A stretch of 64,000 nt of DNA from Amphibalanus amphitrite. Lineage: Eukaryota > Arthropoda > Thecostraca > Balanomorpha > Balanidae. Positions 1-61,635 of the stretch are shown here, piece by piece. Location: assembly GCF_019059575.1 (NCBI RefSeq), contig NW_024881966.1, positions 62,001-126,000 on the forward strand, given 5' to 3'. Position numbers and translations under genes: made by a program. The stretch's first letter is position 1. Each line of letters begins with the position of its first letter. The notes under the pieces were generated by a model. It saw only the letters and a program-made list of their open reading frames with translations. It ran no database searches and had not been told where the DNA came from.

Positions 1-1544
1 GCCCAGCTGTTCTCAAGATCTGGAAGCGCCCCCCGCACGTGCGCACGTGCAACCGCAACACATGAGAATGCATTGCCTGGTGGGTGCCTACCTCTATGCC
101 AAGTTTCAGCGAAATCGCCCCAGTAATTACCGAGTTATTGAAATAGGAACAAAATTGGCACCTCTTCTTTTTGCATTTTGCACGTGCAGTAGGGGTCACT
201 CACATAGATCAAGAGTATTCTACCTTTGGTAGAATGGATGCAGCTACCCTACAAAAATCACCGCAAGACAATCGCCTAAGCGACTGCTAACCCGCGATGG
301 GCTGGGGGGTAAATTTTACCCCCCTCGCGAATTTTTGCAATATCTCAAAAACGGCGGCGCGCAGCGCCGCCAAACTTTTAGTACCTTTTTCTACATCAAT
401 TTGACACGTTCCCTGAAAATTCGAGCGAAATCCTTCGGGTTTTTTTTAGAAAATGACGTTTTAGTGACGTCATGTTCGCCATTTTCGCCCCAAAAACGGC
501 AAAATTTCAAACGCCGCTAACACCTTCATTTTTAAGGGAATCAAGACGTACCAAAAAGGTTATACGTGATGCTACTTTGTCTATCAAATGGCGATCTCGG
601 TTTTTGAAAATTGTTGCTTTTTGCCTTTATTTAAAAAAAAAACTGATTTTATTCGGAAAAAATGATTATAAAATCCGAAATTTTGCGTATATAAAATACA
701 TACCAATTTTTGGAAGAATCGAATCAAAAATGTGGGAGTTATTCAAAATTTTATGACGTTACGACAAACAATTTTTTTTGAAAATGACTTTTTGGAAGTC
801 CTAGACCTTGTACGGAAACAAAAATAGCACCATTCGATTCGCCGTAAAAAAAAACTGCATCAGATAGACACCTTTTTAGGCCTTAACAGCCAACTTCAAA
901 ATTTGACCTCACTTGACCTGACCTTGACCTGACCTCGACCTGAAATTCATCCAGATGTGGTCCATATCACCTATTGAGTGTGCCTATTTAATTCTATGAA
1001 TAAAATGACCCATAAAACAAGTGTCGCACATGCCCTTTTCTATATTTTGTTTTTGGTGACCTGACCTGACCTGACTTGACCTTGACCTTGACCTCTGAAT
1101 GATATTGTATGCAAGGAATATTGTCTTGGTAGCCTAAGAACACGTTTTGGGCAATCAGTCTCAGTCCATGACTCCGTTCTTCGGCAGCTACGGTGCAAGG
1201 CCGATACTGTAGAAACTTGCAATTTGTACCCTTGACCTGTCTTTGACCTTGACCTCAAACTTTAAATTAAGAACATGTTTTTAGTTGTTCGTGATGAGAT
1301 CTTTCGATTGGCGTTTAAATTTTCCAAATCGGACCATTAGTTCGGGAGATAACAGGGGGGGGGGGGTAAAATTTACCCCCCAGCCCCGCGCGTTCGGCTG
1401 GAGACCCCAGCCCCTCGCGGGCTAAGATATGAGCCTCTCAAAATCACTACTTTTGCAAAACAGCTTGAACACCCTTGACTTTTCACGTGGCACGTGCCAC
1501 GACGGTTACTGAGATGTATCAAAAGTATGTAGTCAATTACGGGG
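1..1544 (+). repeat. CACGTG-rich repeat, partial copy, split by element T1
   Basis: Positions 1-286 and 1426-1544 match, in the same order, a second copy at about 16276-16697. Shared landmarks are a CACGTGCGCACGTGC block, a run describing GCATTGCCTGGTGGGT, and the block around CACGTGGCACGTGCC. T1 sits inside it with a CTAA duplication. The copy starts before the window and loses similarity near 1544, where a short GTAGACTAC repeat begins. No coding potential seen. Confidence 0.8.
291..1421 (+). mobile_element. TTAA element T1 (subfamily A), 1131 bp
   Basis: Flanked by CTAA at 287-290 and 1422-1425. The uninterrupted relative of the host repeat has a single CTGA at 16584-16587, so this is a true target duplication. 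The left (simple) end begins CCCGCG and has a G6 TAAATTTTA C6 hairpin near 310-332. The right (complex) end has G-run TAAAATTTA C-run, then two copies of a GGGGCTGG-type motif ending CGCGGG. The interior carries TGACCT repeats at about 900-1090 and 1230-1255. T9 is an inverted copy. Confidence 0.88.
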
Positions 1545-1599
1545 TAGACTACTTTTGTAGACTACGTAGACTACTAGGGTAGACTACGTAGGGGGTTTT

Positions 1600-2641
1600 C
1601 ATTAAACGATTAGGTATTTGACGATTCTAAAGCACCCAAAATTTTTGACCACAGGTCAATTTTCAAGGTCAGAGGTCAAGGTCAAAGGCAAAAATCGGCA
1701 CATGTGTAGTGATCTCAAAGTACCGGCAAAATTGGGTGTCAAACGAAAGACGAGAATCTGAGGATTCCAGAAAAGTGCTCAACATTAAAGTTCAAGGTCA
1801 AGGTCATGCTCAAAATTGACCTCAAACTTTGCACTTTTTCGTACATCTTGCGTGCTAACTACCAATATGTTTTGAAATGTTTTGAGGCTTATCAGGTCCC
1901 TATTTGTGGTTCATCTTACGATACAAGGCTACTCAAAGGTCAAGTTCACAGAAGAGTATCCTTGCTAGAGGCTATTTTACTGATTCAAGTTAGTAATAAT
2001 AAATAAGACAATGTTCCCATCCGGAGGCTCTAAATGAAGGCTTAGAGGAAAATAGATGCCAGGTTCGTGATCAGCGGGGCATGAATTTATCATAAGCGAC
2101 CTTTCATGTATCAAGGTCAACCAAAGGTCATTCAAGGTCACATGAGGTCAACATAAAACTTGACCAATTCCAAAAAAAAATATATATAATTCGATGCGGC
2201 TTGACAGGGCCAATGCGATGGTACCACTGCTGTAGCTCTAGGACCATTTTTGTCGAAGTTATTTGCGAAAAACTAAAACCACAGCTCGGGGTCGTTGACC
2301 TGACCTCTGACCTCAGATCACTAAAACTATTTTTATATTTTTATCCAGGTCAAACGCTTCACGACCGTGCTCGTAATTTGACTTTATTTTTAAAGCTCTA
2401 TTTTAAGCAGCTATTTGAAATTCGCGTCTGTGACGCCGAAGTTTGCCGTGCAGGGGTCTAGAAAAATCGACCCTGTGACGTCATCAATGAGGCTAGGTCC
2501 AATTTTTTACTTCAAAAGATGTCAAATTGATGGGAGAAAGGTACTGAAAGTTTCGCTCTCCTATCCCTAAGCGTTCGGGAGCTATCGCAAATATTCGCCA
2601 GGGGGGGGGGGCGAAAAACACCCCCCCCGGGTCCGCGAGGG
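1600..2641 (-). mobile_element. TTAA element T2, left end lost
   Basis: Only the right end is clear: a G11-C9 hairpin at about 2600-2628 followed by GCGAGGG and TTAA at 2642-2645. The interior has AGGTCA clusters at 1652-1690, 1790-1806 and 2110-2150. No TTAA-CCC start is seen on the left, so the boundary near 1600 is a guess from where AGGTCA density begins. It probably lost its complex end. Confidence 0.5.
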
Positions 2642-2719
2642 TTAATTTTGAGCTCACTGCATCTAGTTCGGCAAACATCCATCGAGCACGTCAGTGCCAT
2701 TGGCCCGACCGGCAAACTA

Positions 2720-3286: not shown

Positions 3287-4462
3287 CCCGCGCCCCACTG
3301 GGGGGGGGCTATTTATAGCCCCCCCTCCCGTTTTTCTGCAATAACTTCCAAACCGCTTGACGGATCGACGCCAAACTTTCAGTACCTTCGGCTGCATCAA
3401 TTTGACACCTTGTGTCAAAATTTGAACTTCGTAGCTACCATAGGTCGGCCGGAAATGACGTCAGAGTGACGTCATGTTCGGCCGATTTCGACGCAAAACA
3501 TTGAACCACGGCAATCGCTCCCAAGAGCTCAGTTTTTAAGCTAGATCCAATTTCTTTGCATGAATGGACTCAGAATTGACTGCGCTATCAAACTGCTATC
3601 TCGGATTTTCAAAATTTTGAAAATTTCGAAAATTTTATATAATAATATTCAAAATTTATATTTTTATATTTTTTCAAAAAGTTTTTGACTTTTCGAAAAA
3701 CCCGGAATATATGTGACAGAACGCATGATTATGACTAACTCTAGCAAGTTTTAGCTAAATATCTTCAAAAATGGCCAAGTTATACGCATTATTGCAAAAA
3801 ATTCACAATTATCAATTTTTCAAATCAATTTTTCAGTACGTATTTGACATCGTACACCAATATAAATGGCACCATCGTGTTCCTGAGCTCAAACTGCATC
3901 CAATAGACACCTTTTTTATTGAAAAATTTTAACTTCAAAATTTGACCTTTTTTGACCTGAAAGTGACCTGACCTAAGCTAAATTCGACTCAAAATGACCT
4001 CGAATGACACAGACGACATCAAATTCGAAATCTATGGCCTAAATGGACCATAAAACATGTGTCACGTGACCGACGCATGATATAATATTTTCGTGACCTG
4101 TGATGACCTGACCCTGACCTGAAAATCAAGGTACAAGTTTGGTACCCTCAATGTATCTAGAGCATCTGTTCACGAGTGTGGAAACCAAAAATGAGCCTGA
4201 TCTGACTTGTAAGACGGCGGCCAGAGCCCAAAATGTGAACAAGCCAAAGTGCTAATAATTTTTACTTTGACCTGACCTGTGACGTCATCGGTGACCTCGA
4301 GGTCAATGAAATTAGGTTTCGCTCGACAGTTTTTCCGGGGCTATCAGACGCCGTTTGAATTTTGGCGATCAGCCCAGTAGTTTCGGAGTTAGGAGGGGGG
4401 GGCTATGAATAGCCCCCCCACCCAGTAGGGCGTGTTATACACAGACCCCAGTGGGGCGCGGG
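3287..4462 (+). mobile_element. TTAA element T3 (subfamily B), 1176 bp
   Basis: Flanked by TTAA at 3283-3286 and 4463-4466. Simple left end CCCGCGCCCCACTG followed by G9 CTATTTATAG C7. Complex right end has G8 CTATGAATAG C7, then ACCCAGTAGGGCGTG and CCCCAGTGGGGCGCGGG. TGACCT clusters lie at 3945-3970, 4095-4120 and 4268-4300. T12 is the same element in inverse orientation. Confidence 0.9.
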
Positions 4463-5511: not shown

Positions 5512-5513
5512 TA

Positions 5514-6409: not shown

Positions 6410-6454
6410 ACAACGCGCCAAAAATATCAACCGGCGGCGGGATTCGAGCCCCCC

Positions 6455-8216: not shown

Positions 8217-8220
<4 letters not shown>

Positions 8221-14018: not shown

Positions 14019-15006
14019 CCCTATTCCTGGCGGGCTCCGCCGGGACAAGAAACTGGCGGGGGGGGGCCGATTCGGCCCCCCCTGAGATCTCGAGAACGAA
14101 GCAAGATAGCGACAAGCGGTAAACGGCATCGGATACGCACGGTCAAGATCTACAATTTTTACAAAGGTCATTTTCAAGTCAGGTCAAAGATGACGTCACA
14201 GGGGTCGAAAAAGTCAAAATGGCGGCGCTAGATATGGAGAGAGTTTTTCTCGAATAACTTTCGAATTAGTCAAGATAGGAACAAACTAAGGGTATCATCG
14301 TGATCCTCTCGTCAATCCGCATCGAATGATATATATGTTGACCTCGAAAGGTCAAGGTCAAAGGTTGACCTCAGGTCACGTGACCTCGAGGTCATCATGT
14401 ATATCATTCGATGCGTCTTGACGAGCTGAACACAATGAGACCATCCACGCGTCTGTATCTTGTTCCTGTACGGAGTTATTGGCCAAAAACCTTTGGTGAC
14501 CTTTGATGACGTCACATGACCTCACAGCTGCCCAACAGCAAAACAGACCTCAAGGTAGTGAAGGTTGATCGTATATGAAGTCATGTATGGTATATGGGGC
14601 CATTCCGACCCGTTTTAGTGGTAAAAACAGGGAGTTGATTTTTCCCCATTGACTTATAATGGGGAGGTCGCGAAACTGACCTGACCTTAGGTCACCGATA
14701 TCAAAATTCCGAGATATACAAATTGCACATACTGGTACCCTAACTAAAGCCTGAATAGAAGAAATTGATCGGTCAAAAACTCTAGCTCTGGCGTGATTGC
14801 AAACTTTTCTGAGGTAGGGTCACCAAACCGCCTCTGGTGACCTGACCTGAGGTCAGATCAACTCAAAATTTTCAGACATGTTGCGTAGAAGCCTTTTAGG
14901 AAAAGTCAGAAAATTTGAGCTTCCTAGCTCAACGCGTTTGGGAGAAAGAACCAAAAAAACCTCAGGGGGGGCTCCTGAGGCCCCCCCTTCCCCGCCAGGA
15001 ATAGGG
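14019..15006 (-). mobile_element. TTAA element T4 (subfamily C), 988 bp
   Basis: TTAA at 14015-14018 and 15007-15010. Complex left end CCCTATTCCTGGCGGGC, then G7 CCGATTCGG C7. Simple right end G7 CTCCTGAG-type hairpin, then CCAGGAATAGGG. The central palindrome (ATCGAATGATATA ... TATATCATTCGAT) at about 14318-14428 encloses an AGGTCA/TGACCT array with AGGTCACGTGACCT. It interrupts the LINE. T6 is its inverse copy. Confidence 0.9.
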
Positions 15007-15087: not shown

Positions 15088-15972
15088 CCCTCGCATGTGT
15101 GCGGCGTTTGCCAGCTTCTAATGTGTAGGGGGGGGGTCGGTTGGACCCCCCCCTTGCCGTTTGGCCCCTGATCGAGCTAGAGCTTCGCGGAAAAAACGAG
15201 CGTGTTGCCCGTGACGAGAGGAAGCCGATGATACCCAATTTTAGGGTCCTAGGTCATTGGTTGACCTTCCAGGTCAGGTCAATGACCCAAAGTCGGGAAA
15301 ATCGGGACCTATTAGAAAGTCGTAAAGTGTGGCTGCTAAGGGGTTTTTCGGGGTGCTGATCACGATTATCGTGTTAGTTTTGATCACAGATGATGTCTTT
15401 AAGCATTTAGACCAGGTCGGGTCAGGTCAGGTCAACCAGTAGGGGTTGTGACGGGTATTCGTAGTACGTGTCAACCGCCTCTGACAGCTTCGTAACATGT
15501 TACAAAGGCACCAAAACTACTTCGTAAATGTTCAAATGGTTGCTAAATTCGAATTCAGCTCCAAAAACTAGCTTAGAAACATGTAAAACTCGAAAAAGTG
15601 AACCGAGGTCACGCGAGGTCACCAAAGGTCAATGGCCTGACCTGATCTTCAGGTGACCTTGACACCCATTCTAATGCATGGGAGCAACATCAAATCACAT
15701 GTTTGAACGTTTGAAACCACGAAAAGCTTGCAAACGCGCGGCATGCGAGCCGACATACGCGGAATCGCGATTCCGGCCAGACATGGTCTCGGAAAAGAGG
15801 TCACAGGTCAAAGGTCATTTAGGTCAGGGTCATGAAATTTTCAGGGTAGGTGTACAATTTATCAATAAGAGGGTACTGAAAGTTTCGTCGCGATCGGCCG
15901 CTTTTTACGCGAGTTATTCGCGAAAAACCATAGGGGGGGTCCATCCGACCCCCCCCCCTACACATGCGAGGG
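15088..15972 (-). mobile_element. TTAA element T5 (subfamily D), 885 bp
   Basis: TTAA at 15084-15087 and 15973-15976. Complex left end CCCTCGCATGTGTGCGG, then ATGTGTAG and G9 TCGGTTGGA C7. Simple right end G7 TCCATCCGA C9 and ACACATGCGAGGG. AGGTCA clusters at about 15250-15290, 15415-15435 and 15605-15660. T20 is the inverse copy. Confidence 0.9.
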
Positions 15973-40732: not shown

Positions 40733-41740
40733 CCCGCGCACCGACTGAAGTCTGCGCCAACTTCGCACCGACGGGGGGGGGGGCGGATGACCGCCCCCCC
40801 CCCTGAGATCTCGAGAACGAAGCAAGATAGCGACAAGCGGTAAACAGCATCGGATACGCACGGACAAGGTCTACAATTTTTACACAAGTCATTTTCAGGT
40901 CAGGTCAAAGATGACGTCACAGGGGTCGAAAAAGTCAAAATGGCGGCGCTAGATATGGAGAGAGTTTTTCTTGAATAACTTTCAAATTAGTCAAGATAGG
41001 AACAAACTAAGGGCATCATCGTGATCCTCTCGCCAATCCGCATCGAATGATATATATGTTGACCTCGAAAGGTCAAGGTCAAAGGTTGACCTTAGGTCAC
41101 GTGACCTCGAGGTCATCATGTATATCATTCGATGCGTCTTGACGAGCTGAACACAATGAGACCATCCGCGCGGCTGTATCGTGTTTCTGTACGGAGTTAT
41201 TGGCAAAAAACCGCTGGTGACCTTTGATGACGTCACATGACCTTACAGCTGCCCAACAGCAAAACAGACCTCAAGGTAGTGAAGGTTGATCGTATATGAA
41301 GTCATGTAGGTATGGTATATGGGGCCATTCCGACCCGTTTTAGTGGTAAAAACAGGGAGTTGATTTTTCCCCCATTGACTTATAATGGGGAGGTCGCGAA
41401 ATTGACCTGACCTTAGGTCACCGACATCAAAATTCCGAGATATACAAATTGTAGCTACTAATGACCTAATAACATCCTGCGACTTTCAAAGGCCTCCGAC
41501 ATCTACTGTAGCTCTGGCACGGTGACAAAGTTGCAAAAAAGTGACTTGAGGTTGGGTCATTCAAAGTGACCTGGTGACCTGACCTTAAAAGTTAGGAGGT
41601 TCAAACTTGCACACCATGTGTAAAATTGATAAGAGAATAGTCGTACCAAATTTCGCGGCGCTACGCGCCGCGGTTTTCCCGCTATCCGCGAAAAACCTCA
41701 GGGGGGGGGGCAGATATCCGCCCCCCCGTCGGTGCGCGGG
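40733..41740 (-). mobile_element. TTAA element T15 (subfamily E), 1008 bp, in a TTAT site
   Basis: Matched TTAT at 40729-40732 and 41741-41744. Complex left end CCCGCGCACCGAC, TCGCACCGAC and G-run CGGATGACCG C-run. Simple right end G10 CAGATATCCG C7 and GTCGGTGCGCGGG. Inverse of T7 and T22. Confidence 0.9.
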
Positions 41741-45798: not shown

Positions 45799-47003
45799 CC
45801 CGCGCACCGACGCACAGTGGGCGATCCGGCCGGTGTGGCCTCGCGAAACCTATCGGCATTAATAACATCAATGTTTTTGAAGCTAGAACCACAATATTTA
45901 GGAGCAACCTTCTTGAATATCCAATGAGCATGTGTTTTAAATAAGGACTATCTCTTATAGAATTTGTGCTCTGTGGCGAGCTTGCAATTCGCCTAATTGC
46001 TGCTCGAACAACGCATGAATACTTTTGAGGGTAGGTCGAAATTTATGACGGTATGAGCTGGGTAGGACGTTGAAATGGTGTGTACCTCCGTAGAAAATTG
46101 CTTCTAAACCATTTTTTTATTCAAACGATTATGCCCTACCAATTTACACATATCATGAAACAGCGTAAATCTCGCCCGGCAAGGCCCCATTTCATAACGT
46201 GACCCAATCAGCGGGTTTGTTTTTTGGTAAATAAGTTAGCAAAAAATGGCCGCAGAACCACGATTTTGACATCGTCGATTTCGCCTTGCTCAGGCGCGTC
46301 GAATGGTATACTTTTGTTCAGGTGAGGCCACCGTAAGGTCAACCTGACCTTGACCTCGAGTAAAGGTCAGGTCAGAGGTCTTCAAATCACGAAGTTGGTC
46401 GAAGGAGGTCATATCGCATATCATTCGATTCGGCAGGTCTTCCGGAGTCCATTGGTGACCTTGTCGACTCTCTAGCTCAACTTGATCGGGAGTTATTGAC
46501 GAAAAACTCGTATGACCCTAGTGACGTCATAAATGACGTCATGCAAGGTCAACAATGCAAAAATGCAGCATCAGATCTTGCAAGGAGTGCATGAAGTAAC
46601 GATTCCATTAACTTGAGACAATTGAATACCATTCCTGGCGCCAAAATAACAGTTTTCATATTTCCCCATTGACTTATAGGTGAGGTCACGTGACCAACCT
46701 CACTTTATGTGACATTTAGGAAAAATATGAGATATACAAGTTGTAAGACCTCTGAAGGACAATAAGTCCTGCAAGTCTCACCTCCCTGTGAAAGTTACTC
46801 TGTCACTGAGAGCGTTGGAAGGTTGCGACATCTGATGATCGTGCAGAGGTTCATGTATGACGTCATAGGTCAGTGACCTGACCTGACTTGAAAGTGCAGT
46901 TGGTGTCACAAGATCCAGCGTGCATCAAAGGTCAGGTATGCCAGGTTGCAGCTCTCTATTGCCTGGGTGTTTTGAGCTATCGCGAAAACACCATTTGGGG
47001 CAT
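45799..47003. mobile_element. TTAA element T18, old and eroded
   Basis: TTAA 45795-45798 and CCCGCGCACCGACG are intact, but no G-run hairpin follows. The interior keeps family marks: GCGTCGAATGGTATAC near 46293, AGGTCA/TGACCT at 46320-46385, ATCATTCGATTCGG near 46413 and CCCCATTGACTTATAG near 46664. The right end is uncertain. Confidence 0.5.
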
Positions 47004-47807
47004 TAACCACTTGTGCTCAAGTGCACCAAGCCACAGCCAACCCTTAAAAGAAAAAAGTGTCTGGATGCCAGAGCTGCAAGTGGCTGCAAATTTTCACTGG
47101 CTCCCCTGATAGATAGTGTCTTAGTGCATGCGATACAGCAATATTTTCAGTTCATCCTCGTAAAACTTTTTTTGCTGGGCTTGTTAACCCGCGAGTTGCT
47201 GGTTGGGGGGCGTTAAACGCCCCCACTTTTTTCGCCGGGCCATAGCATAAAAACGGCGCGCCGCAGGCGCACCAAATTTTGGGTACCTGTAGGGAATCGA
47301 TTGAAGTTCATTCTGGCAAAGCTTCAAAAAAATCGGTCGGAACATTTTTGAGATATCGAGGTTTTAGTGACGTCATGATTTCTGACTTTTCGACCAAAAA
47401 CGGCATATGTTCAAAAAATCATATAAAATCACAAAATAGACATACAGACATGCCGTAAACGCCATTAGACTGCCAATACCATGAACAATCAAATGGCTAT
47501 CTTCGATTACACTATGCAACAAAAAATGAAACATTTTCTGTTCCTGGAAAGCGACCGAATTTTTCTTATTCATTGGGTCCTATTATATTCGAAATGGGCA
47601 TTAGTTTTGATCCGAAAATGTTTTTCCGGTTTTCAGAGACGATTTTCGATTTTTGGCACCGAAATTCGGTTTTTGGCCCACCGTGTCCGATGTAATTGAG
47701 TAATCGACTCGCCGTAACTTTCATCGCCTTTCCTATGCCACAAGCTTTCGAATGATATCTGGTTTTGCATATTTACGTGCAAAAACAACGTCATAAATCT
47801 ATGTTAA

Positions 47808-48697
47808 CCCTCGCATGTGTAGGGGGGGGGGGTCTGATGGACCCCCCCCCATGGTTTTTCGCAAATAACTCACGTAAAAAGCGGCCGATCGCAACGAAAC
47901 TTTCAGTACCCTCGCATTAATCAATTTTACACCTACCCTGAAAATTTCATGACCCTGACCCAAATGACCTTTGACCTGTGACCTCTTTTCCGAGACCATG
48001 TTTGGCCGGAATCGCGATTTCGCGTATGTCGGCTCGCACTAGCCGCGTGTTTGCAAGCTTTTCGTGGTTTCAAACGTTCAAACATGTGATTTGATGTTAC
48101 TCCCGTGTGTGTCAAGGTCACCTGAAGGTCAGGTCAGGTCATTGACCTTTGGTGACCTCGGGTGACCTCGGGTCACTTTTTCGAGTTTTACATGTTTCTA
48201 GGCTTGTTTTTGGAGCTGAATTCGAATTTAGCAACCATTTGAACATTTACGAAGTAGTTTTGGTGACTTCGTAACATGTTACGAAGCTGTCAGAGGCGGT
48301 TGACACGTACTACGAATACCCGTCACGACGCCTACTGGTTGACCTGACCTGACCTGACCCGACCTGGTCTAAATGCTTCAAGACATCATCTGTGATCAAA
48401 ACTAACACGATATTCGTGATCAGCACCCCGAAAAACCCCTTAGCAGCCACACTTTACGACTTTCTAACAGGTCCCGATTTTCCCGACTTTGGGTCATTGA
48501 CCTGACCTGGAAGGTCAACCAATGACCTAGGACCTTAAAATTGGGTATCATCGGCTTCCTCTCGTCACGGGCAACACGCTCGTTTTTTCCGCGAAGCTCT
48601 AGCTCGATCAGGGGCCAAACGGCAAGGGGGGGGGGTCCAACCGACCCCCCCCCCCCCTACACATTAGAAGCTGGCAAACGGCGCACACATGCGAGGG
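47808..48697 (+). mobile_element. TTAA element T20 (subfamily D), 890 bp
   Basis: TTAA 47804-47807 and 48698-48701. Inverse copy of T5. The opposite arm of T19's inverted repeat has the unfilled site with a single TTAA at 52124-52127. Simple left end CCCTCGCATGTGTA and G10 TCTGATGGA C9. Complex right end ends ACACATGCGAGGG. Confidence 0.92.
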
Positions 48698-49093
48698 TTA
48701 AAGTAAGAAAATGTTGAAATTTTGTAAAAATTTGACATTTTTTTCGATTTCATTTTAAAATAGAGGAAAAACTAAAGACCCTATCCAAATTCTGAGCCCA
48801 GTTCCTTGAAGAGCATTCAATTTCCGTTCGGAAGGTACCTTTTTAGTGCATTTTATCGGATTCCTGTGGCGTCCAGATTGAGTTAACCTAAACACATATC
48901 CTATGTCATATCACATAGCATTAACCTGATAACGTATGTTAACGCCATAGGATCAACGAGGGGTCAACTGAGGTCATGTTGTTGACCCCTTGTGACCTCG
49001 GGCCAAACGCAGGAACTTACTTTTGAGCAGTCCTGTCGCTCAGAATCTTGATCTGTACCTCCATTTGTTAGAATGATTCTTCATGCACTGAAC

Positions 49094-51891
49094 CAGGGTT
49101 GTATACGATTCAATCAATAGCAATCAATTCAATCACGAAAAATTTGGGAAACCAATCAAATCAATCAAGTCAGAGCAGTTTTCGGGAATTGATTCAATCG
49201 ACTCAAACGCGACAATGAAAGGAATCAATCAACTCAATCAAACGACTCAAATCAAGACATACATTAGGTTTTTTGCCCCACCAACTTGGAAAAGTGTCCA
49301 TAGCAGTCTGGTGTACCTACCAACCTACATACCTACAGAAGAAACATAAAAATATTGTCATTTAAAATTATAAATTGCCCTACCATTCAAAGTTTCTATG
49401 TAATAAGGAAGGATAGCTAGCGATGGACAGGTGGATCATGATATCGAGGTTCAATGGGTAGAATTGGAGCAGAATTTTCATTAATGGGTGCAAAATAACC
49501 CAGTAGTTGACTCGCCCCTGAACCCAAATCACCACCTTTCACCTTAAAGTTGTCAATTTAATTTTGGCCATATTCCAACTCCATTTACACTAAATATCAG
49601 ATATTGCAGCTGAAAGTTGGCTGCTCGGATTTTGGCAGTGTTCGTGATTTGGCCATTTGCCCTACACCATGTCTATTTTAATGGATAATATGCATCAATA
49701 ACATATTAACCATAGGGAAATAGAAATAAATATATTACCTGCATGTGACGGTTTCGGTTAGACAGAGACTGACCAGAGACTGACGGGCAGCCTGAAATAT
49801 CTTTCCACACATTTGCATTTGAGACGTGGGATGGGGCTAAGCTTTTATAAATCCTTATTCTACGTCTTTTGATTTTTTGGTAAGATGACGTCATTGATAA
49901 TCATGTAGTATGGTAGATCATCATAAAATAAATCGGTTGTACAACACCAATTTCGTTTTAATTATTATTTCATTTGAAATAAAACCACTTAATAATATTC
50001 GGTAAAATATTTCAAGGAAAATGAAATATATTAAATATATTATGCTTAGGCTCTCAGGAGAAAAGGATCAACAAACATTCTGCTGCAAATTAAACAATGC
50101 AGCAAATTTAGCGAGACGAAAACGGCGCTTTTGTTTCAGTTATTTTTGTAGGGGTTTCAGATATTCATAGAGTTCAGTGGGTTGTTTCTGAGGAGATGTG
50201 GAGATGTGAATTGTTAATTAACCCGCGCCCTGGTGTGGGTCTGAGCCACCTTCGCCCTGGTGGGGGGGGGGGGCCAAAATGACCCCCCCGTCTAACTCGA
50301 AAACGAAGAGGGCTAGGAAGACGCGGAAAAAAGCAAACGAAAGCCCATAACAAGTACGTTCGAAAGTATTTCGGTCATTTTTTCGCTAAGGTCAATATTG
50401 AGGTCGCTAGAGGTCATCATAGGTCAAATTTCAGTGTTTTCGGTGTTGCCGGACATATTCCGCTGTAGCTCGGAAACTAGAAGAGCTAGAGAGCCGCGGA
50501 AAAAAGCAATCGATAGCTCTTTTCAAGCTCTTTCGCCAAAGTTCGTCAGATTTGACCTCAGCTCAACGGTTTGGCCTACAGAGGTCATGCAAGGTCAACT
50601 TGGCAAATTTCGTTGAAAATGTTTTTAACTATAGCATGCATTCACGAGAAAATAGAGAAACGATTCATGCACCATCGTGCTTGGCTCGTCGAGACGCGTC
50701 GAATGATATATAGTTTGACCTCGAAAGGTCATTTTGAAAATTTGACCTCAGGTCAAGGTCATGACCTTACCGAAATAGGTCATGCTGCATATCATTCGAT
50801 CCGCATTGACGAGACAAACACGATAAACGTCGAACGGAGTCTCTATCTCTATTCAATAACAAGTAAGTGCAGAAAAACCGCTGGTGACCTCTGGTGACCA
50901 GGGAGATGACCTAGCGTGACCTCAGCGAGGTCACAAGCAAATGGTTTCACATGGGCTGTGATTTGCTGACCCAAGACACTTCAATAACGAAATATAGGAA
51001 CAATCACGCCCGATTTAGCTGAAAAACAACTACTTTTCGATTCTCCCATTGACTTATAATGGGGAGCAGCGATGACCTGACCTGACCTTAGGTCACATTT
51101 ATAAAAAATCCGAGATAGCCATTTTGTAGAGCTGGGTGACATCTTCAAGTACTGTAAATTTTACATCGATCGGATAAAAGCTGTGTCTTTGAGAGAGCTT
51201 TGAACTTTTTTAGAGGTGGTGTCAGTTTTGGTGACCTTGTGACCTGACCTGACCTGACCCGAACCCCCCAAAAAAGGACATGATGTAAAAATGTTGAATA
51301 AACAGCTATACAAAGTTTCAGGGCGCTAACTCAAGTGGTTTCTGAGTTATCGCTAAAAAACCACAGGGGGGGGCCAAAATGCCCCCCCCCCCACCAGGGC
51401 GAAGGTTAATCACACTTTATTAGTATATAGGGCCTTGCACTTTATCATCTGGATTAAAAAAAACGTTTCCTGCTGAGTGCAGAAAGGTAGGTAGGTGCAT
51501 CGCCAGGTTCTATCACCAGGATTGGAGCAGTTATTGCAGTTGAAAGTCAATGTTGGCTGTTTATGCTTAGGCCCTGTTCTTTATTTGGCCATCTACCCCA
51601 TATTGCAGTTATGATGACAAGCAGTTTTCAGTGTAGTTTTGTGATCTTTGATGTCATCAATTGGTGTCATTATTTTTCGTCAACTAAAACTTATTTGAAC
51701 TTTCCATTCAATCGACTCAATCATACGAGTCACTCTAATTTTCGGGAATCAAATCAGTCAACCAGTCGCTGAAGTCAAACGAGTCAGTCAACCAGTCATC
51801 TCGAAAAGTCAATCGACTCAATCCAATCAACTCAAAATATGCGTTGAATCAAATCAATCAATTCAATCGACTTGATTGGTATACAACCCTG
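49094..51891. mobile_element. hAT-type non-autonomous element
   Basis: Ends CAGGGTTGTATAC and GTATACAACCCTG, flanked by identical 8-bp duplications CACTGAAC (49086-49093, 51892-51899), which is the hAT hallmark. Both subterminal regions (49103-49255 and 51705-51880) are filled with CAATCAA, TCAATCGACTCAA and related short repeats, likely transposase sites. 2798 bp with T21, or about 1.6 kb without it. No transposase frame. Confidence 0.92.
50222..51405 (-). mobile_element. TTAA element T21 (subfamily H), 1184 bp
   Basis: TTAA 50218-50221 and 51406-51409. Inverse copy of T16, with almost the same text over its whole length. Complex left end CCCGCGCCCTGGTGTGGG, TTCGCCCTGGTG and G-run CCAAAATGA C7. 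Simple right end G8 CCAAAATG C12 and ACCAGGGCGAAGG. It sits inside the hAT element, which is inside T19. Confidence 0.92.
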
Positions 51892-53015
51892 CACTGAACA
51901 CATATTGTCATGGAAATGGCTGCGGGCCCGTTTTTCAAGTGACTCAATCTGGACGCCACAGTAAAGCTATAAAATGCACTAAAATAGCACCTTCCGAACG
52001 GAAATTGAATGCTCTTCAAGGAACTGGGCTCAGAATTTGGATAGGGCCTTTAGTTTTTTCTCTATTTTGAAATGAAATCGAAAAAAATGTCAAATTTTTA
52101 CAAAATTTCAATATTTTCTTAATTTAACATAGATTTATGACGTTATTTTTACACGCAAATATGCAAAACCGGATATCATTCGAAAGCTTGTGGCATAGGA
52201 AGGGCGATGAAAGTTACCGCGAGTCGATTACTCAATTACACCGGACACAGTGGGCCAAAAACCGAATTTCGGGGCCAAAAATCGAAAATCGTCTCTGAAA
52301 ACCGGAAAAGCATTTTCAGATCAAAACAAATGCCCATTTCGGTTATAATGGGACCCAATGAGTCCAAAAAAATCGGTCGTTACTCAGGAACAAAATGACT
52401 GTTGCATAGTGTTATTGATTATCGTTCCGTATTTTCCGAAATCTTGAACTGAATCTTGGCAATTTCTCGTGACTACTTCACGACCATGATACATGCATTT
52501 CTTAAATTGAACTTTTTCAGCCAAACACGTACACATATGATAAAATGAATGTCACCATCGTGTTCTACGCCCCAAATTACCCATAAAACATGTGTCACAG
52601 GCTGCGAATATCAGTTTTGATTTTCGAGGATATGTGCCTACCGGGTTGACCTGACCTTGACCCTGACCTATGCTTGACTGACCCCTACATGGAGCTGACA
52701 CTCTTGTAGGCCTTATATGATGGATTGTGCACCGTTTTGACGGAGTTTATGACGAGAGGCGCCCATTGCGAAGTCCTGAAGTCCATGCTACTGAAAGCCC
52801 GATTTCAGGTGTTTGACCTGACCTTGACCCGACCTGTGACCTCGAAATTCAGCTTTAAAGTACTCATCTGAAGCGTCTCGTCGCGTTCTTTCGTTTGCCG
52901 CCTAGTGCGTTTCGCTGCGCCTATTGGTTCTCAAGTTATCGGCTGGGGGCGTTTAACGCCCCCCCCCCCCCAGCAAACGGTGGGTGGCGAAATACCCCAG
53001 CAACTGCCGGGTTAA

Positions 53016-53416: not shown

Positions 53417-54409
53417 CCGTGCGACGGGGGGGGGGGCGGATATCCGCCCCCCTGAGGTTTTTCGCGGATAGCGGGAAAACCGCAGCGCGTAGCGCCGCGA
53501 AATTTAGTACGACTATTCTCTCATCAATTTCGCACATGGTGTGCAAGTTTGAACCTCCTAGCTTTCAAGGTCAGGTCACCAGGTCACTTTGAATGACCCA
53601 ACCTCAAGTCACTTTTTGCAACTTTGTCACCGTGCCAGAGCTACAGTAGATGTCGGAGGCCTTTGAAAATCGCAGGATGTTATAAGGTCATTAGTATCTA
53701 CAATTTGTTTATCTCGGAATTTTGATGTCGGTGACCTAAGGTCAAGTCAATTTCGCGACCTCATAAGTCAATGGGGGAAAAATAAACTCCCTGTTTTCAC
53801 CACTAAAACGGGTCGGAATAGCCCCATATACCACACATGACTTCATATACGATCAACCTTCATTATCTTGAGGTCTGTTTTGCTGTTGGACAGCTGTAAG
53901 GTCATGTGACGTCATCAAAGGTTACCAGCGGTTGTTTGCCAATAACTCTGTACAGGAACAAGATACAGCCGCGTGGATGGTCTCATTGTGTTCAGCTCGT
54001 CAACACGCATCGAATGATATACATGATGACCTCGAGGTCACGTGACCTGAGGTCAGCCTTTGACCTTGACCTTTCGAGGTCAACATATATATCAATCGAT
54101 GCGGATTGACGAGAGGATCACGATGATGCCCTTAGTTTGTTCCTATCTTGACTAATTCGAAAGTTATTCGAGAAAAACTCTCTCCATATCTTGCGCCGCC
54201 GTTTTGACTTTTTCGACCCCTGTGACGTCATCTTTGACCTGACCTGAAAATGACCTTTGTAAAAATTGTAGATCTTGTCCGTGCGTATCCGATGCCGTTT
54301 ACCGCTTGTCGCTATCTTGCTTCGTTCTCGAGATCTTAGGAGGGGCGGTTATCTGCCCCCTCCCGTGGGTGCTAAGTTGGCGCAGACCCCCGTCGCGTCG
54401 GTGCGCGGG
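53417..54409 (+). mobile_element. TTAA element T22 (subfamily E), left tip eroded
   Basis: Left terminus is degraded (CCGTGCGACG then G-run CGGATATCCG C6). Right end GGCGGTTATCTGCC, then GTCGGTGCGCGGG and TTAA at 54410-54413. Otherwise co-linear with T7. Central palindrome at about 53997-54115. Confidence 0.82.
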
Positions 54410-54722: not shown

Positions 54723-55939
54723 CCCGCGACCGCCTGGGGGGGGGGGGGGGTCGGATCCGAACCCCTCCGTTTTTCTTGAATAACTTATGAACCGCTTACG
54801 CTATCGACTTGAAACTTGGCATACCTTCTCCCCTATCAATTTGACGTCTCCTGTGCAATTTTTAAGAAAAAATTTCCAATTTTTTTAGATATATCGATTT
54901 TAGTGACGTAACTACATGGCGTTTTCAGTCAAAAAGTGGTAAATGTTTAAAAAATCGCCGAAATTCAGGGTTTAAAGAAAATTGCAAATTAAGGACATGA
55001 ACAGACGCAGCTTAACAAGTTCTTTAAAATGGCTATCTCGGATTTTCCATAAAATGCGATTTTTACCCCTAAAAATTCAAAAAACTATATTTTTTGGAAA
55101 ACAGCTTATAAAATCCAAAATTTTGAGAATTTCCAAAAAACCGGCAAATATGTTATAGAGCTCTAGTAGAACATAAGATGTTCCAAATTTCAACTTTCTA
55201 TCTTGATTTTTGACCCCCAAATTGTAAAAAATAGCTCTAACATGCATAGGGCATGGTGACGTCATAAGCATTTTCGTGATTTAGAGGCACTTCTGAACAT
55301 CGCATGTGAAAACAAATGGCACCACTAGATTCCTGGGGCAAAGCTCGTCTAGAAAAGTGCATTTTTATGTCAAAAATAAAAAGTTGAAAAATTGACCTTT
55401 TTCTTAGCCCTCGTTTAGTTATGTATGGTATAAACGATTTTTTTATGCTTTCAATGCACACTTATCACCAGCACAGTGACTTGGGGTCACATATAAGTTA
55501 TAACCATTAACATCGGATTCGGCGTGAAAAATAAGCCATAAAACATGTGTCGCACGCCCATGTAGCAGAAAGTGAAAACCGTGATCTTTCGTGACCTGAC
55601 CTGACCTTGACCTGTACTTAGTATGACCCCTATACGCACATGGTACCTTCACTAGGTCTTTGAGGTCATTTTTGGTGAGTTTAGAGCAGCAGCTGTCGAT
55701 TCCGCTGTCCGTAAGCCTAATCATGCAAAGCCCCAGAATTTGACCTTTGACCTGTCCTTTACCAGAAAGTTGACCTCAATCTTAAAATCTTAAGAGTGCT
55801 TTGGAAGGTCTCGTAGAGACCTTTCGAACGCCGCCTCGCGGGGCTCCATGCGACCATTGGTTTTCGAGATAACAGGGGTGGTTCGGATCCGACCCCCCCA
55901 GGCTGTCGTGGGTACGGAAATAGCCCAGGCGGTGCCGGG
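54723..55939 (+). mobile_element. TTAA element T23 (subfamily L), 1217 bp
   Basis: TTAA 54719-54722; the right TTAA 55940-55943 is shared with T24. Simple left end CCCGCGACCGCCTG and G14 TCGGATCCGA. Complex right end GGTTCGGATCCGACC and AGGCGGTGCCGGG. It has fewer AGGTCA motifs than the other subfamilies. Confidence 0.88.
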
Positions 55940-55943
55940 TTAA

Positions 55944-58215
55944 CCCGCGCCCCGCTGGGGGTCCTGGATTTCCACGCCCTGCTGGGTGCGGGGGGTGTTT
56001 GAACACCCCCCTTCTAACTCGGCTCCTGGGCCACGTAGCGATACGCGGAAGGCGGCGTTCGAAAGAGCGCCAAAAATAATGACGAAATCACTCCATCCAC
56101 TTTTTAGGTCAGGTCAAAGGTCAGGTCACCAGAGGTCACCAAAGGTAAAATGTTGGCTATTTCAACATTTTGGAAACTGCCAACGGGTAACTCGGGAACC
56201 GATAGAGCTACAGCGCCGCGGAAAAACGCATTCGATAAGGTCTTTTAACGCTCTTTTGCAAAATATCCTCAAATTTGGCCTCAGTTCAATGGGTTTGCCT
56301 GCAGGGGGCAAAAATTGCCAAAATAACCATTTTTTTTTCGGAAAAAGTTTTTTCTGCAATAATTATTGACCCAAGCCTTGCACGAGCTTACTTTTACCGG
56401 CATCGTGTTTCTCTCGTGAAAACGCATGGAATGAACTAAAATTTGACCTTGAAAGGTCAACTTAAAAATTTGACTTCAGGTCAAGGTCATGACCTGACCG
56501 GAAAGGGTCATATTGCATATCGATCGATCCGTATCGTCGTGCTGAACACATCTAAGGCGTTTTCATCGCTTTGGCATGCCCCTATCAAAAGTTATTTGCG
56601 AAAAACTGTTGGATACCATTCGTGACCTGAGATGACCTCAGGGCCATAAACAGGAATCACGGACAACATTTTCATGTTCAGTGTGTCTAAGTCACTTGTA
56701 ATTCGGTGTTTGGGATTGTTTATAATGGCCTTCGTCCAAAAGAGGCGCATTTCAGTTTTCTCCCATTGACTTATTATAATGAGGAGGTCGCAAAATTGAC
56801 CTGACCTTAGGTTATCGATATCAAAATTATGTGATAACAATTTTGTACATGCTACTGCTCTTAGCAATCGCTGAAAGTTTGAAAGCGATCGGTCACTCGG
56901 TGTAGCTATGGCAGACATTGAAACTTTTTATGAGGTGAGGTCACTTCAAGTAACCTGGTGACCTGACCTTGAATGACCTTAGTCTCAAATTTTCACAACA
57001 TGTGTATAATTGATATATGATAAGGTGTGCCAAAAACCACATGGGGGGTGTTTCAACACCCCCCCCCCCCTTGTGGTTTTTCGCGAATATCTCAAAAACG
57101 GCGGCGCGGAGCGCCACTGTTTTTGGTGCACCTTATCATACATCAATTCTACACATGTTGTGAGAATTTCAGACCAAGGTCATTCAAGGTCAGGTCACCA
57201 GGTCACTTTAAGTGACCTCACCTCATAAAAAGTTTCAATGTCTGTCATAGCTACACCGAGTGACCGATCGCTTTGAAACTTTTAGCGATTGCTAAAAGCA
57301 ATAGCATGTACAAAATGTATATCTTAGAATTTTGATATCGATGACCTAAGGTCAGGTCAATTTTGCGACCTCCCCATTATAAGTCAATGGGAGAAAATTG
57401 AAATGCGCCTCTTTTGGACGAAAGACATTATAAACACTCCCAAACACCGAAATACAAGTGGTTTAGACACACTGAACATGAAAATGGTGTCCGTGACCCT
57501 TGTTTATGCCCTGAGGTCATCTTAGGTCACGAATGGTATCTAACAGTTTTTCGCAAATAACTTTTGATAGAGGCATGCTAGAGCGATGAAAACGCATTAG
57601 ATGTGTTCAGCTCGACGATACGGATCGACTGATATGCAACATGACCCTTTCCGGTCAGGTCGTGACCTTGACCTGAGGTCAAATTTTCAAGTTGACCTTT
57701 CAAGGTCAAAATATAGCTCATCGATGCGTCTTGACGAGAGGAACACGATGCCGGTGAAAGTAAGCTAGTACAAGGCTTGGGTCAAAAGTTATTGCAGAAA
57801 AAACTGTTTCCGAAAAATCGGCTATTTTTGCAGTTTTTGCCCCCTGCAGGCAAAACCGTTGACGTTAGGTCAAACCTGAGAGAATTACTCAGAAAGGGCG
57901 TTAATAGGGCTATCAAATGCGCTTTTCCGCGGCGCTGTAGCTCTATTGGTTCCCGAGTTATGTGTTGGCTTCTTGGAAATTTTCGACATTCGACCTGGAA
58001 ATCGGCGAAATTTTGCCTTCAATGACCTCTGGTGACCTGACCTTTGACCTGACCAAAAAATTGAACGAAGTGATTTTATCATTATTTTTGACGCTCTTTC
58101 GAACGCCGCCTTCCGCGTATCGCTACGCGGCCCAGGAGACGAGTTACAAGGGGGGTGTTCAAACACCCCCCCAGGGCGTGGGCGTGGAAATCCAGGACTC
58201 CCAGCCGGGCGCGGG
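55944..58215. mobile_element. TTAA element T24 (subfamily G), head-to-head dimer of 2.27 kb
   Basis: The whole element is an inverted repeat. 55944-57043 and about 57060-58215 are complementary, with complex ends outward and a single shared simple-end hairpin (G6 TGTTTCAACA C-run, 57043-57070) in the middle. A short stretch next to the centre is missing in the left arm. TTAA 55940-55943 and 58216-58219. Confidence 0.9.
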
Positions 58216-58224: not shown

Positions 58225-59427
58225 CCTTCGCCCCAGTGTGTGTGTGGGGGGGGGCATATGTTACCACCCTGTCGCGTTGTTTGCGTGTGAATAAAAAACC
58301 GCGGCCGCGCCGCTTAGGATAGCTTTTTGGTACATCAATTTTGGACAATGTGTGAAATTTTGGACACCAGGTCATGTCAGGTCAGGTCACCAGGTCAAGT
58401 TAACTGACCAAGCCTAAAAAAGTTTGCAATCCTCTCCAGCCTGCAGTGTTTGTCAGAAACGTTTGAAACTTAGTGGATTGCATGATGGTGTGGGCGCCTC
58501 TATTTTTTTTTTATCTCGATTTTTTGTATCCGTGACCTAAGGTCAGGCCAGTGGCGTGACCTTACCATTATAAGTCAATGGAGAAAAATGAAAATGCCTC
58601 TAGATCCGTGTGTACGCATAGGAGCAGTCCAAATATTTCAGAATCTTAATGATTTGAACCACCCGTGACGACCATGGTGTCTTTTTTGCTGATAGCCTCT
58701 AGAAATGTCATAGAAAGGTAGAAAAGGTCGAGGTCATTTGAGGCTACAAACAGATTTTTGCCAATAACTCTCGATTGGAAAGAGATAGGACGCTGGGGAT
58801 GGCCTCATTGTGTTTGTCTTGTTGAGACGCATCGAATGATATGCAACATGACCTTTCCGGTCAGGTCATGACCTTGACCTGAGGTCAAATTTTTAAGTTG
58901 ACCTTTCAAGGTCAAATTATAGTTTATTCGACGCGTCTCGGCGAGAGAAACACGATTCTGGCAATAGAAATGTCTTGTTTTTTTGTTTTTTTTTGTTAGT
59001 CAAAAGTTATTGTCGAAAAACACTTTTCGTAAAAAACAGCTATTATTGGAGTTTTTGCCCTCTGGAGGCTAAACCGTTGACCTGAGATCAATTTTGATGA
59101 TGACCTTATCAAAAGAAGAGCTCAAGAGCTATCGATTGCTTTTCCATGCGTTTCTCTAACTATCATAGTTCCTGAGATAAATGCATGTTTTCTGAAAATA
59201 TGATGACATTTGGCAAATTATGACCTTTGATGACCTCCAGTGACCCCAATTTTGCTCTAAGATGAAAATTGACCGAAATACTTTCAAACGTACGCATTGA
59301 GAGCTATCGACTGCTTTTTACCGCGTTTTTCTAGCCCTCTTAGTTTTTTAGTTAGAGGTGAGTGGTAACATATGCCCCCCCCCCCCCCCACTAGGGCGAA
59401 GTTGGCTGAGACCGCCACTGCACTATG
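58225..59427 (+). mobile_element. TTAA element T25 (H-like), target sites eroded
   Basis: Left end CCTTCGCCCC, a GTGTGTGT run and G9 CATATGTTACC. Right end GGTAACATATG C15, ACTAGGGCGAAG and GAGACCGCCACTGCAC, a decayed complex end. The interior has CCATTATAAGTCAATGG near 58565 and the central palindrome at about 58824-58940. No matching 4-bp duplication. Confidence 0.78.
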
Positions 59428-60446
59428 TTTTAACTCAGGACAAAAACTGGCCAGGGCTCGTAACTAAGAAACTATATGAGATACAAACGTGTTTTTGGGC
59501 TCAAACGAAACGTTGGTGACTAACGATCATTTAGAGTGCAAAATGTGTCTGACCAGATGCTTATGTACTTGTTTATGACGTCACAAGTGTCACGAAATAT
59601 ATAAAAATATTGTCATGTTCTAGCTATGAATGCACGCACATTTAGGTATCTGTAAATTTAGAGTAATCGCAAGTCTGAGCAAGGCTCATCGACGAGGCAA
59701 GTCAAGTTTGAGGACATGACCTTGTTAATTAGCGTTGATGATCCCAGGTGACCTTGAATGCTCTTATAGGTATAGGACTTATTCATATAGGACCTACAAT
59801 CTTTATATTTATTTCAAAAACATTTTTAAACGTATATTTTTAAATCAACTTGATGTTAACCCGGTCTCCACTTAAGTAAGTCCAGAGTCTTGTATGTTTT
59901 ACGTCACATGACTCACGAGCGGATCCAGCTAATCCGTTTGGAGAGGGCAAAAGTTTCCGACCCATTCGGTGACCCCGACCCACCGCCGCGCCGGTGACTT
60001 TACAACGCTTCACTACGTCTGCAATATGCATGCGTGCAGCTCAGGGAGTTCCATCTGTTATCAGCATACCGACCTAAATAATGAGCAGCGAGCGGTCAGC
60101 TCCATTCCATAGAATGGCTGTGACGGAAAGACCTGCTTTTCGTCCAGATAGGCATCGACGCCGTATTATAGGTATTTATCATCACCAAAAGCTTTGGGAG
60201 CGGCAAAAGGATAGTTTTTCCCACACGATTCAGCTATGGGGAGGGCAAATACCCACTATGCCCTTCACTGGATCCTCCAATGCATGTCGTGAAATGGTAG
60301 AATGTATCCTAAAACTTCTTACCAATTCCTACTGTATGGCAGGGTATATTGAATTAGGTGGTGCGTTATGTACCATGCAATGTGCACGTAAAAGCACTTC
60401 ATTGCCATACTAACTGACGCTTACTGCAACAAACGGATACTTTTTC
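59428..60446. other. Unique spacer, no supported gene
   Basis: About 1 kb with one 110-codon plus-strand frame (60081-60413) that has no recognisable domain, splice context or repeats. I do not call it a gene. Confidence 0.5.
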
Positions 60447-60450
60447 TTAA

Positions 60451-61635
60451 CCCGCGCCCCGTTGGGCTCTGCCGAGCAACGCGCCCCATTGGGGGGGGGG
60501 CATTTTGCCCCCCCCCCCCTAAGATCTCGAGAACCACGCAACCTAGCGACAAGAGGAAAACGGTGTTGGATAGCCCTATCAGGGAACTACCTTGTGACCC
60601 AATTTTTTGATCTAGGTCAAACCGATGACGTCACAGGTCAGGTCAAAGGTCCAATTTTCACCGTTTATAGGCATTTCAAGAAATGCGTTGTAAAATCGAG
60701 TAAAATGCATTTCATTGAAAATCATCGATGGGGAAATGTTCTTCAAACACATATTTTGCTATTTGAGGTCACTGATACCAGGTCAGGTCACAGAGGTCAG
60801 GTCACTGGGGGGTCACAATATGAAAGTGTCGTGTGATACATGTTTTATGGTCCATTTCACATGACAAATGCGATGATGTGGGTCAGGCAGCCTTTGGGGC
60901 CAGCCTAGGTCACGTTTTGGTCAAGGTCAAGGTCAGGTCAAGGTCAGGTCAAGGTCAGGTCAAATTAGGTCAAATTTCAAAGTTGATATTTTTGCATAAA
61001 ATGGGTATCGAATCGATGCAGCTCGTCACGGGGAGTTCAATGGTGGTCTTTGTTTTGCCGTACGTGGTCTAGAATTGCTAAAAATTGAGTTCAAAAATTT
61101 GACGTCATCATTTTTGAACATTTTTTTTACTATAACTTGGCCAAAAAACGAGATATCGATCTGAAATTTGGTATGTATATAGAAGAGCGTAGGGACTATC
61201 ACATATATTCCGGTATTTTCGAAATTCGGAAAAAAATTTGGATTTTTTTTTTAAGTTTTTCTAAAAAAATCAATTTTTTGAATTTTTTGGGGTCAAAAAC
61301 CCAAAATTTTGAAAATCCGAGATAGCAGTTTTGTAGCGCCGCTTTTTGCCTACTAGACCATATAAAGAACTTTAGAATTGCTTGATAACTGTAGATTTGG
61401 TGAGCGTTTCAAGATTGCATGTTTTTTGCTCATTTTTGTTCGAACATGACCTCAGTTTGACCTCAATAACTCCTGACCTAAGGTGACCTAAGACTTGAAA
61501 TTTTGTGTGAAGGTGTCAAATTGATGCCCGGGAAGGTACTGAAAATTTGGCGGCGCTGCGCGCCGCCGTTTTCTTGCTATTCAGGAAAAACCACAGGGGG
61601 GGGGGGCCAAAATGCCCCCCCCAACGGGGCGAGGG
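60451..61635 (-). mobile_element. TTAA element T26 (subfamily I), 1185 bp
   Basis: TTAA 60447-60450 and 61636-61639. Complex left end CCCGCGCCCCGTTGGGC, GCGCCCCATTG and G9 CATTTTG C13. Simple right end G10 CCAAAATG C8 and AACGGGGCGAGGG. GGTCAAGGTCAGGTCAAGGT array at about 60920-60965. Interior similar to T11, same orientation. Confidence 0.88.

Follow-up and report, generated by a model that had tools for sequence, protein, structure and literature searches.

Asymmetric-ended, AGGTCA-rich TTAA elements in a barnacle genome as probable non-autonomous piggyBac transposons

The piggyBac element of Trichoplusia ni inserts at TTAA and is bounded by two unequal ends. According to the available part of PMC7351741, these ends measure 35 and 63 bp (LE35/RE63), a difference of 28 bp; in the left end, a 19-bp, palindrome-like internal repeat is centred on an axis near bp 25, and the right end contains an insertion and a duplicated segment, with bp 34-63 nearly repeating bp 7-35 of the left end. 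The asymmetry is called puzzling and enigmatic in that paper, and a second, inner transposase dimer is proposed. The accessible text of PMC11707139 likewise places a palindrome on both T. ni ends in an asymmetric arrangement. The piggyBat element of Myotis lucifugus belongs to the same superfamily, shares the TTAA target and asymmetric ends, and works as a tetramer whose non-catalytic inner dimer synapses the ends (PMC11707139 and PMC13405395, from partial text), while the CMITEs of Acropora corals are families of piggyBac miniature inverted-repeat transposable elements (MITEs) with TTAA targets and CCC tips (PMC2872659, from partial text). Here we describe a dense population of TTAA elements in a 64-kb stretch of the Amphibalanus amphitrite genome (C469:62001-126000 of the 807.55-Mb assembly; hereafter the window) and argue that they are very probably MITEs of the piggyBac superfamily, with ends organized like those of T. 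ni piggyBac and with an unusual load of AGGTCA motifs in their interior.

The window contained 25 elements of one kind (Table 1), 22 of which were two-ended, while the other three were split by a later insertion (E18/E22), truncated (E2) or left with decayed tips (E26). Most MITEs were 0.9-1.2 kb long. Twenty-four intervals covered 25,886 bp, or 40.4% of the window, and simple addition of both decayed copies brought the coverage to about 28 kb; the original prediction of 26 copies over about 30 kb, made from the sequence alone, therefore came close in extent and overstated the number. Equal 4-bp flanks, the target duplication contained in the same prediction, bordered 20 of the 22 two-ended elements (17 TTAA/TTAA and one each with CTAA, TTAT and TTAG), while E10 (TCAA/TTAA) and E17 (TTAA/TTTT) had unlike flanks. 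A scan demanding equal flanks and CCC tips yielded 17 of the 22 and thereby introduces a selection effect; the remaining five were found via their hairpins, and three of these five displayed equal flanks. The TTAA duplication characteristic of the piggyBac superfamily was also present around the transposase-bearing element C1173 described below (TTAA/TTAA). Similarly, the CC(C/T) tips typical of piggyBac, although partly a selection criterion, were present in the five hairpin-found elements as well as on both ends of C1173, whose limits were drawn from copy comparison. The equal but non-canonical flanks of E1 (CTAA), E15 (TTAT) and E16 (TTAG) suggest rare insertion into TTAA variants, and CTAA and TTAG are named among rare piggyBac duplications in the available part of PMC10813416. 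Adjoining elements had one TTAA in common at 24313-24316, 25301-25304 and 55940-55943. When elements from the window and from fetched loci were combined (32 elements), they formed 17 clusters at 90% identity, and the median global identity of all pairs was 0.76 versus 0.74 for shuffled sequence, while local homology persisted.

The ends of these elements followed a common spacing. In a sample of 30 elements (18 from the window and 12 from fetched loci), the distance between the tip and the centre of the palindrome, which is enclosed by a G-run and a C-run, amounted to 28.2 ± 2.3 bp for simple ends and 55.7 ± 2.7 bp for complex ends, with a median difference of 28 (range 19-34). Kept outside this sample were the symmetric E24, E11 and E13 (centre at 70 or more by the finder used), E17, the split and decayed copies, and six low-grade end pairs judged spurious. 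The complex end carried a second copy of the tip at a best offset of 26-28 bp in 30/30 elements, with at least 8 of 12 bases alike in 29, a score attained by 21% of random sequences when any offset between 15 and 39 is allowed. Both the palindrome asymmetry of about 28 bp and the duplicated tip segment of a piggyBac right end were thus found, E11 and the dimer E24 deviating. These measurements uphold the predicted hairpins near each end, one simple and one complex, as well as the predicted CCCGCG and CCCTCG starts, to which CCCTAT has to be added (examples of tips from different subfamilies are CACCGACG, CCCTGGTG and AGTTGCTG). Since this anatomy equals that of T. ni piggyBac, the simple and complex ends correspond to a left and a right piggyBac end, respectively. 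The accompanying claim that no described family has such an architecture is contradicted by the LE35/RE63 anatomy in the available text of PMC7351741 and PMC11707139; at the level of architecture, a family of this kind has largely been described already.

Tips and palindromes varied among subfamilies in a coordinated manner. Among 21 representatives the inner tip copy tracked the tip of its own element (6.5 of 8 bases versus 3.8 when permuted, the top of 10,000 permutations being 5.0), and left and right palindromes within one element matched at 9.5 of 11 bases compared to 5.4 between elements, the latter value taking in relatives from the same subfamily. This co-variation supports a functional inner site at the right end but falls short of proof, because sequence exchange between the ends could also keep the copies alike. 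A genome-wide search for a pattern of intermediate spacing returned 610 forward matches; among the matches listed, most were simple ends whose G-runs are very long, and the search therefore provides no test of the spacing rule.

Transposase genes framed by the same ends were present elsewhere in the genome, where a search with PF13843 gave at least 116 matches (all of the 116 candidates scored out of 232). Two copies of one element, C44 and C1173, were 99.1% identical over 3635 bp, and their identity ended at a TTAA and a complex end, roughly 1 kb beyond the catalytic domain. On the opposite side C44, C1173 and a further copy, C42, exhibited a simple end and TTAA followed by flanks that were different in each copy, so that this family comprises two complete transposase-bearing copies of 3967 and 3969 bp, while the right end of C42 lies outside the data. 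A second element in locus L033 (1529-8096, TTAA/TTAG, centres at 61 and 32) had its gene between both ends, which were 6568 bp apart, and carried another MITE inside. In L046 an element beginning with a CCCGCG complex end ran towards a 659-aa (amino acid) frame and matched E21 (99.3%, 683 bp) and E16 (99.4%, 680 bp). The three framed transposases (C44/C1173, L033 and L046) matched PF13843 as well as T. ni piggyBac in PDB (6x67/6x68, the better of two matches; E 8.9e-79, 1.2e-56 and 3.8e-73), with the PDB matches reaching residues 587-593 of 594. The C-terminal Cys-rich pattern was recognized in three of the five copies examined (L033, L039 and L046), and a tree built from 29 frames united the labelled hairpin-end copies L033, L036, L038 and L039 in one branch with a support of 100/98, L046 being next. 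L030, E5 and E20 were related to both ends of L033, as internal-deletion relatives of a transposase-bearing element are, while E16 and E21 were related to L046 from one end, the far end lying outside the data. The originally predicted piggyBac-like mobilisation is thus borne out by transposase genes that have the same tips and hairpins around them, at both ends in C44/C1173 and L033 and at one end in L046.

The Kolobok and Sola3 superfamilies also use TTAA, which by itself does not discriminate between them and piggyBac. Kolobok MITEs with TTAA have been described in Xenopus (PMC6004289, from partial text). That the elements belong to such a superfamily and merely resemble piggyBac is nevertheless barely credible, considering the PF13843 and T. 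ni piggyBac matches of the framed transposases and the piggyBac spacing of the ends.

Other candidate sources were rejected. Within the window, the 860-aa frame at 10402-12984 sits in a different transposon and had no Pfam match; 13 of the 20 larger transposase loci had candidate ends of other kinds, mostly with CCCATTA tips and without hairpins; and both ends at L043 belong to an 868-bp MITE adjoining the gene.

We consider it highly probable, at roughly 93%, that the elements are non-autonomous piggyBac MITEs moved in trans by T. ni-type transposases encoded elsewhere in the same genome. By analogy with the structures of T. ni piggyBac, the transposase core would grip the tip segment, a dimer of Cys-rich domains would bind the G-run/palindrome/C-run, and a second, inner dimer of the transposase, responsible for the synapse, would dock on the additional tip and the displaced palindrome of the complex end. 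As all three tip sites and both palindromes have to be read by one transposase, a lineage that changes its tip and palindrome would be expected to change all copies within the element together, and the step of about 27 bp would be retained since the phasing of the two dimers depends on it.

The hairpins themselves could alternatively drive replicative or hairpin-primed copying, as in hairpin-ended mobile DNA, via single-strand hairpins or cruciforms and with TTAA as an incidental feature. The G-run and C-run arms folded as single strands in five of six left ends (z -3.6, -1.8, -4.9, -1.5 and -2.5), and E24 is an inverted dimer joined at a single hairpin, both of which this explanation would accommodate. 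The sixth left end, however, folded no better than shuffles (z +0.4), insertion occurs at TTAA with equal flanks, the same ends frame cut-and-paste piggyBac transposase genes, and the palindromes occupy the positions of the Cys-rich-domain sites in T. ni, which renders such a mode of copying very improbable.

Several observations weigh against mobilisation by piggyBac transposases or against parts of the model. The left and right palindromes differ in E4 and E6, and E11, E24 and E23 (difference of 19) deviate from the spacing rule, E11 because of a microsatellite in its complex end; its inner tip copy has been lost as well (own match 3/8). The fixed spacing is partly descent, because the subfamilies share ancestry. 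The long G/C runs around the palindromes are unlike the T. ni repeat. L046 was seen at one end only, which leaves a small probability of a chance neighbourhood of end and gene in this case. The reading frames of L036 and L038 leave the Cys-rich domain, and these copies are therefore probably not active. In addition, the tree was flagged for long branches, L046 included, and one of its rows (L034) represents a wrong frame.

The barnacle elements and their transposases thus share with T. ni piggyBac the TTAA target, the palindromic internal repeat located in the left end near bp 25, the right end with an insertion, a duplicated segment and a palindrome 28 bp further in, as well as a transposase consisting of a catalytic domain and a C-terminal Cys-rich domain. 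In contrast to T. ni piggyBac, their palindromes are embedded in long G/C runs with a centre that varies by subfamily, their tips are CCCGCG, CCCTCG or CCCTAT, and AGGTCA is dense in their non-coding parts. piggyBat is more distant, having three imperfect palindromes on its left end and none on the right as well as another fold of the Cys-rich domain (PMC11707139 and PMC13405395, from partial text), and its match to the proteins found here is weaker (E 1.1e-30 at best). The Acropora CMITEs resemble the barnacle MITEs in that the tips differ from family to family but the interior is conserved, and a role of this interior in transposition is suggested by the authors; they differ in their length of only about 100 bp, of which 75 bases form one conserved interior, and neither AGGTCA arrays nor terminal hairpins are evident in the available part of PMC2872659. 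No AGGTCA-rich piggyBac MITE and none of the present sequences were found described in the literature searched, which was mostly open-access and had repeat libraries outside its scope. As far as this literature goes, the lineage, its natural variation within the piggyBac spacing rule and its constrained AGGTCA content are new.

E24 consists of two copies arranged head to head, which share a single left-end hairpin at their junction. It lacks both left tips, and each of its outer ends is a right end bordered by TTAA. For a right/right pair of T. ni ends, the native enzyme is reported to excise without integrating while a hyperactive enzyme integrates (PMC7351741, from partial text). Symmetrised piggyBat is inactive. 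Either two right ends are acceptable in the barnacle lineage, or strand switching at the hairpin gave rise to the dimer where it now lies. Genome-wide, the right-end tip of the complete transposase-bearing family, allowing up to 2 mismatches, occurred 2039 times compared to 0 for the reversed control. As a rough figure, the genome total would be of the order of 50,000 complete elements, an estimate based on 182 kb of loci that were selected for their piggyBac genes and contained 11 complete elements; the window is much denser in elements than these loci.

The second outstanding feature of the elements is their content of AGGTCA, the half-site of many nuclear receptors. AGGTCA or its complement TGACCT occurred 400 times in the elements versus 11.7 expected under a first-order Markov model (34-fold), and no coding content was found in the MITEs. 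The density was 15.5 per kb inside the elements and 1.9 per kb outside, where many matches fall in decayed copies. The dense AGGTCA/TGACCT interior and the lack of a gene, both part of the original prediction, were therefore confirmed. The lowest density among the full-length window elements of each subfamily, the split E19 set apart, was 7.4 per kb. The non-coding flanks of two transposase-bearing copies contained 10.6 and 6.3 AGGTCA per kb, while their genes contained 0.5 and 0.

These motifs were also better conserved than their surroundings. The comparison was based on 11 close, non-overlapping pairs out of the 496 possible among the 32 elements, with the terminal 80 bp excluded, CpG ignored and each hexamer counted from both sequences. 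Only 20 of 2055 AGGTCA positions differed (1.0%) compared to 928 of 15177 (6.1%) for the rest, with the lower value for AGGTCA in all 11 pairs, while a circular-shift null of the AGGTCA map gave 5.5 ± 0.9% and a minimum of 2.8% in 5000 trials. AGGTCA was kept in 598 of 691 cases versus 1952 of 2711 for all CpG-free permutations of the hexamer, and its lead over the strictest matched permutations was clearer between close subfamilies (184/235 vs 8/21) than within them. The earlier suggestion that structure and not sequence is selected therefore applies to the ends but not to AGGTCA, where the sequence itself is kept.

Such a pattern could also arise in the absence of selection, through slippage of a GGTCA pentamer combined with a mutation cold spot or with sequence exchange between copies, and we regard this as a serious possibility, if short of an even chance. 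It would account for the 76 neighbouring AGGTCA pairs that overlap as AGGTCAGGTCA with a 5-bp step, and it is in line with the rank of AGGTCA, which was fourth rather than first of 80 hexamers by conservation. On the other hand, away from gaps the isolated hexamers were as conserved as the clustered ones (2/267 and 15/1578 differing positions versus 755/13933 for the rest), and the motif was dense in each subfamily and in the non-coding flanks of the transposase-bearing elements but hardly present in their genes. Besides its rank, further results count against selection on AGGTCA in particular: GATGAC, CATGAC and CTGTGA (30-41 occurrences each) were kept as well or better, the lead over the strictest permutations was weak within subfamilies (364/396 vs 24/29), and E14 and E16 kept just 10 of 35 hexamers (4/121 for permuted ones).

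As the MITEs encode nothing that was found, any constraint on AGGTCA would have to concern the DNA as such, and success in moving would be its simplest basis. We tentatively suggest, as a reading that may well turn out otherwise, that the arrays are a cis-acting requirement for spreading under continuous selection, which would make a host transcription factor part of the life cycle of a piggyBac MITE. As one example, the arrays could be sites at which a nuclear receptor or a similar germ-line factor may open the chromatin of the element for the transposase. Half-sites of the AGGTCA kind are known to act in enhancers, and the host rather than the transposon could keep the motif because inserted copies serve in this capacity. 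Alu elements, which are retroposons, carry defined half-site pairs, unlike the arrays of the DNA transposon described here. In the available part of PMC1785376 they are reported as a mobile family that has spread AGGTCA-like half-sites in the form of DR2 retinoic acid response elements. Maintenance by the host is nonetheless improbable for the barnacle elements, as the constraint was observed in 11/11 pairs placed regardless of genes, and host selection on so many copies seems unlikely.

Table 1. Elements identified in the window; strand + denotes the direction from the simple to the complex end.
Element	Position	Strand	Flanks	Remarks
E1 MITE	291..1421	+	CTAA/CTAA	Palindrome TAAATTTTA at both ends
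E2 truncated copy	1640..2641	-		Single simple end at right, TTAA 2642-2645; left limit uncertain (~1640)
E3 MITE	3287..4462	+	TTAA/TTAA	
E4 MITE	14019..15006	-	TTAA/TTAA	
E5 MITE	15088..15972	-	TTAA/TTAA	Related to both ends of L033 element
E6 MITE	23329..24312	+	TTAA/TTAA	Right TTAA common with E7
E7 MITE	24317..25300	+	TTAA/TTAA	Both TTAA common with neighbours
E8 MITE	25305..26336	+	TTAA/TTAA	
E9 MITE	26607..27781	-	TTAA/TTAA	
E10 MITE	27867..28856	-	TCAA/TTAA	
E11 MITE	30130..31373	-	TTAA/TTAA	Microsatellite in complex end, centre 95 vs ~56
E12 MITE	31928..33105	-	TTAA/TTAA	
E13 MITE	37815..38994	+	TTAA/TTAA	Centres 25.5/54.5 by one finder, mis-centred at 80 by another
E14 MITE	39762..40674	-	TTAA/TTAA	Right end 89% identical to autonomous C44/C1173 element, 244 bp
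E15 MITE	40733..41740	-	TTAT/TTAT	
E16 MITE	42196..43376	+	TTAG/TTAG	99.4% identity to L046, 680 bp from complex tip
E17 MITE	44569..45745	-	TTAA/TTTT	
E18/E22 MITE tip	45799..45812	+		Severed by 7.6-kb insertion
E18/E22 MITE, remaining part	53422..54409	+		TTAA at 54410
E19 MITE	47188..53011	+	TTAA/TTAA	Large nested insertion; ~920 bp in other loci
E20 MITE	47808..48697	+	TTAA/TTAA	Nested in E19; relative of E5
E21 MITE	50222..51405	-	TTAA/TTAA	Nested in E19; 99.3% identity to L046, 683 bp from complex tip
E23 MITE	54723..55939	+	TTAA/TTAA	Right TTAA common with E24
E24 head-to-head dimer	55944..58215	.	TTAA/TTAA	Halves 89.4% identical; hairpin 57043-57070; two complex ends
E26 decayed copy	58225..59428	+		Palindrome CATATGTTACCAC at both ends; target duplication not recognisable; right limit approximate
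E25 MITE	60451..61635	-	TTAA/TTAA	

The insertion that splits E18/E22 is a DNA transposon located in the tip of this element (45813-53421). It is bounded by the inverted ends CACAGTGGGCGATC.../...GATCGCCTACCGTG, has a 5-bp duplication (CGACG) and carries the nested E19-E21. Its ends resemble those of the Transib/RAG type, the heptamer being equal to that of the recombination signal sequence. The insertion in E19 spans 47510-52411 and contains E20 and E21, while its outer parts seem by eye to be inverted copies of each other. The 860-aa open frame mentioned above (minus strand) belongs to a transposon whose long inverted repeats, near 9768 and 13590, lie in TA microsatellites; it has 24 homologues with up to 59% identity and looks like a transposase of an unnamed family. 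An uninterrupted BEL/Pao retrotransposon frame of 1786 aa with Peptidase_A17, RVT_1 and rve matches is encoded at 17262-22622 (plus strand). Additional repeats include a nearly perfect inverted repeat adjoining a TA microsatellite (8213-9706, about 0.6 kb per arm, 99-100% complementary), an element of about 1 kb (~4557-5517) with the end CAGGGTGTCCGGAAAGTCCTGGCGC and its near complement at the other end that appears mariner-like by eye, and minisatellites of the CCGACGTCGGC type (6222-7882), near which a repeat unit (6386-6525) contains the tRNA T-arm-like GGGATTCGAACCCC.

Within this one genome, the tip and the palindrome of the elements vary in at least a dozen ways, yet the elements retain the inner tip copy and a step of about 27 bp. 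This natural variation of the ends provides comparative support for the two-dimer synapse of piggyBac, and the matched pairs of transposases and ends are ready material for the question of which residues read which bases. If the constraint on AGGTCA is true, a gene-less DNA transposon that constrains one transcription-factor-like motif would represent selection on its interior, a question already posed for the coral CMITEs. If the motif is indeed read by a host factor, elements present in roughly 50,000 copies would have seeded the genome with hundreds of thousands of half-sites.

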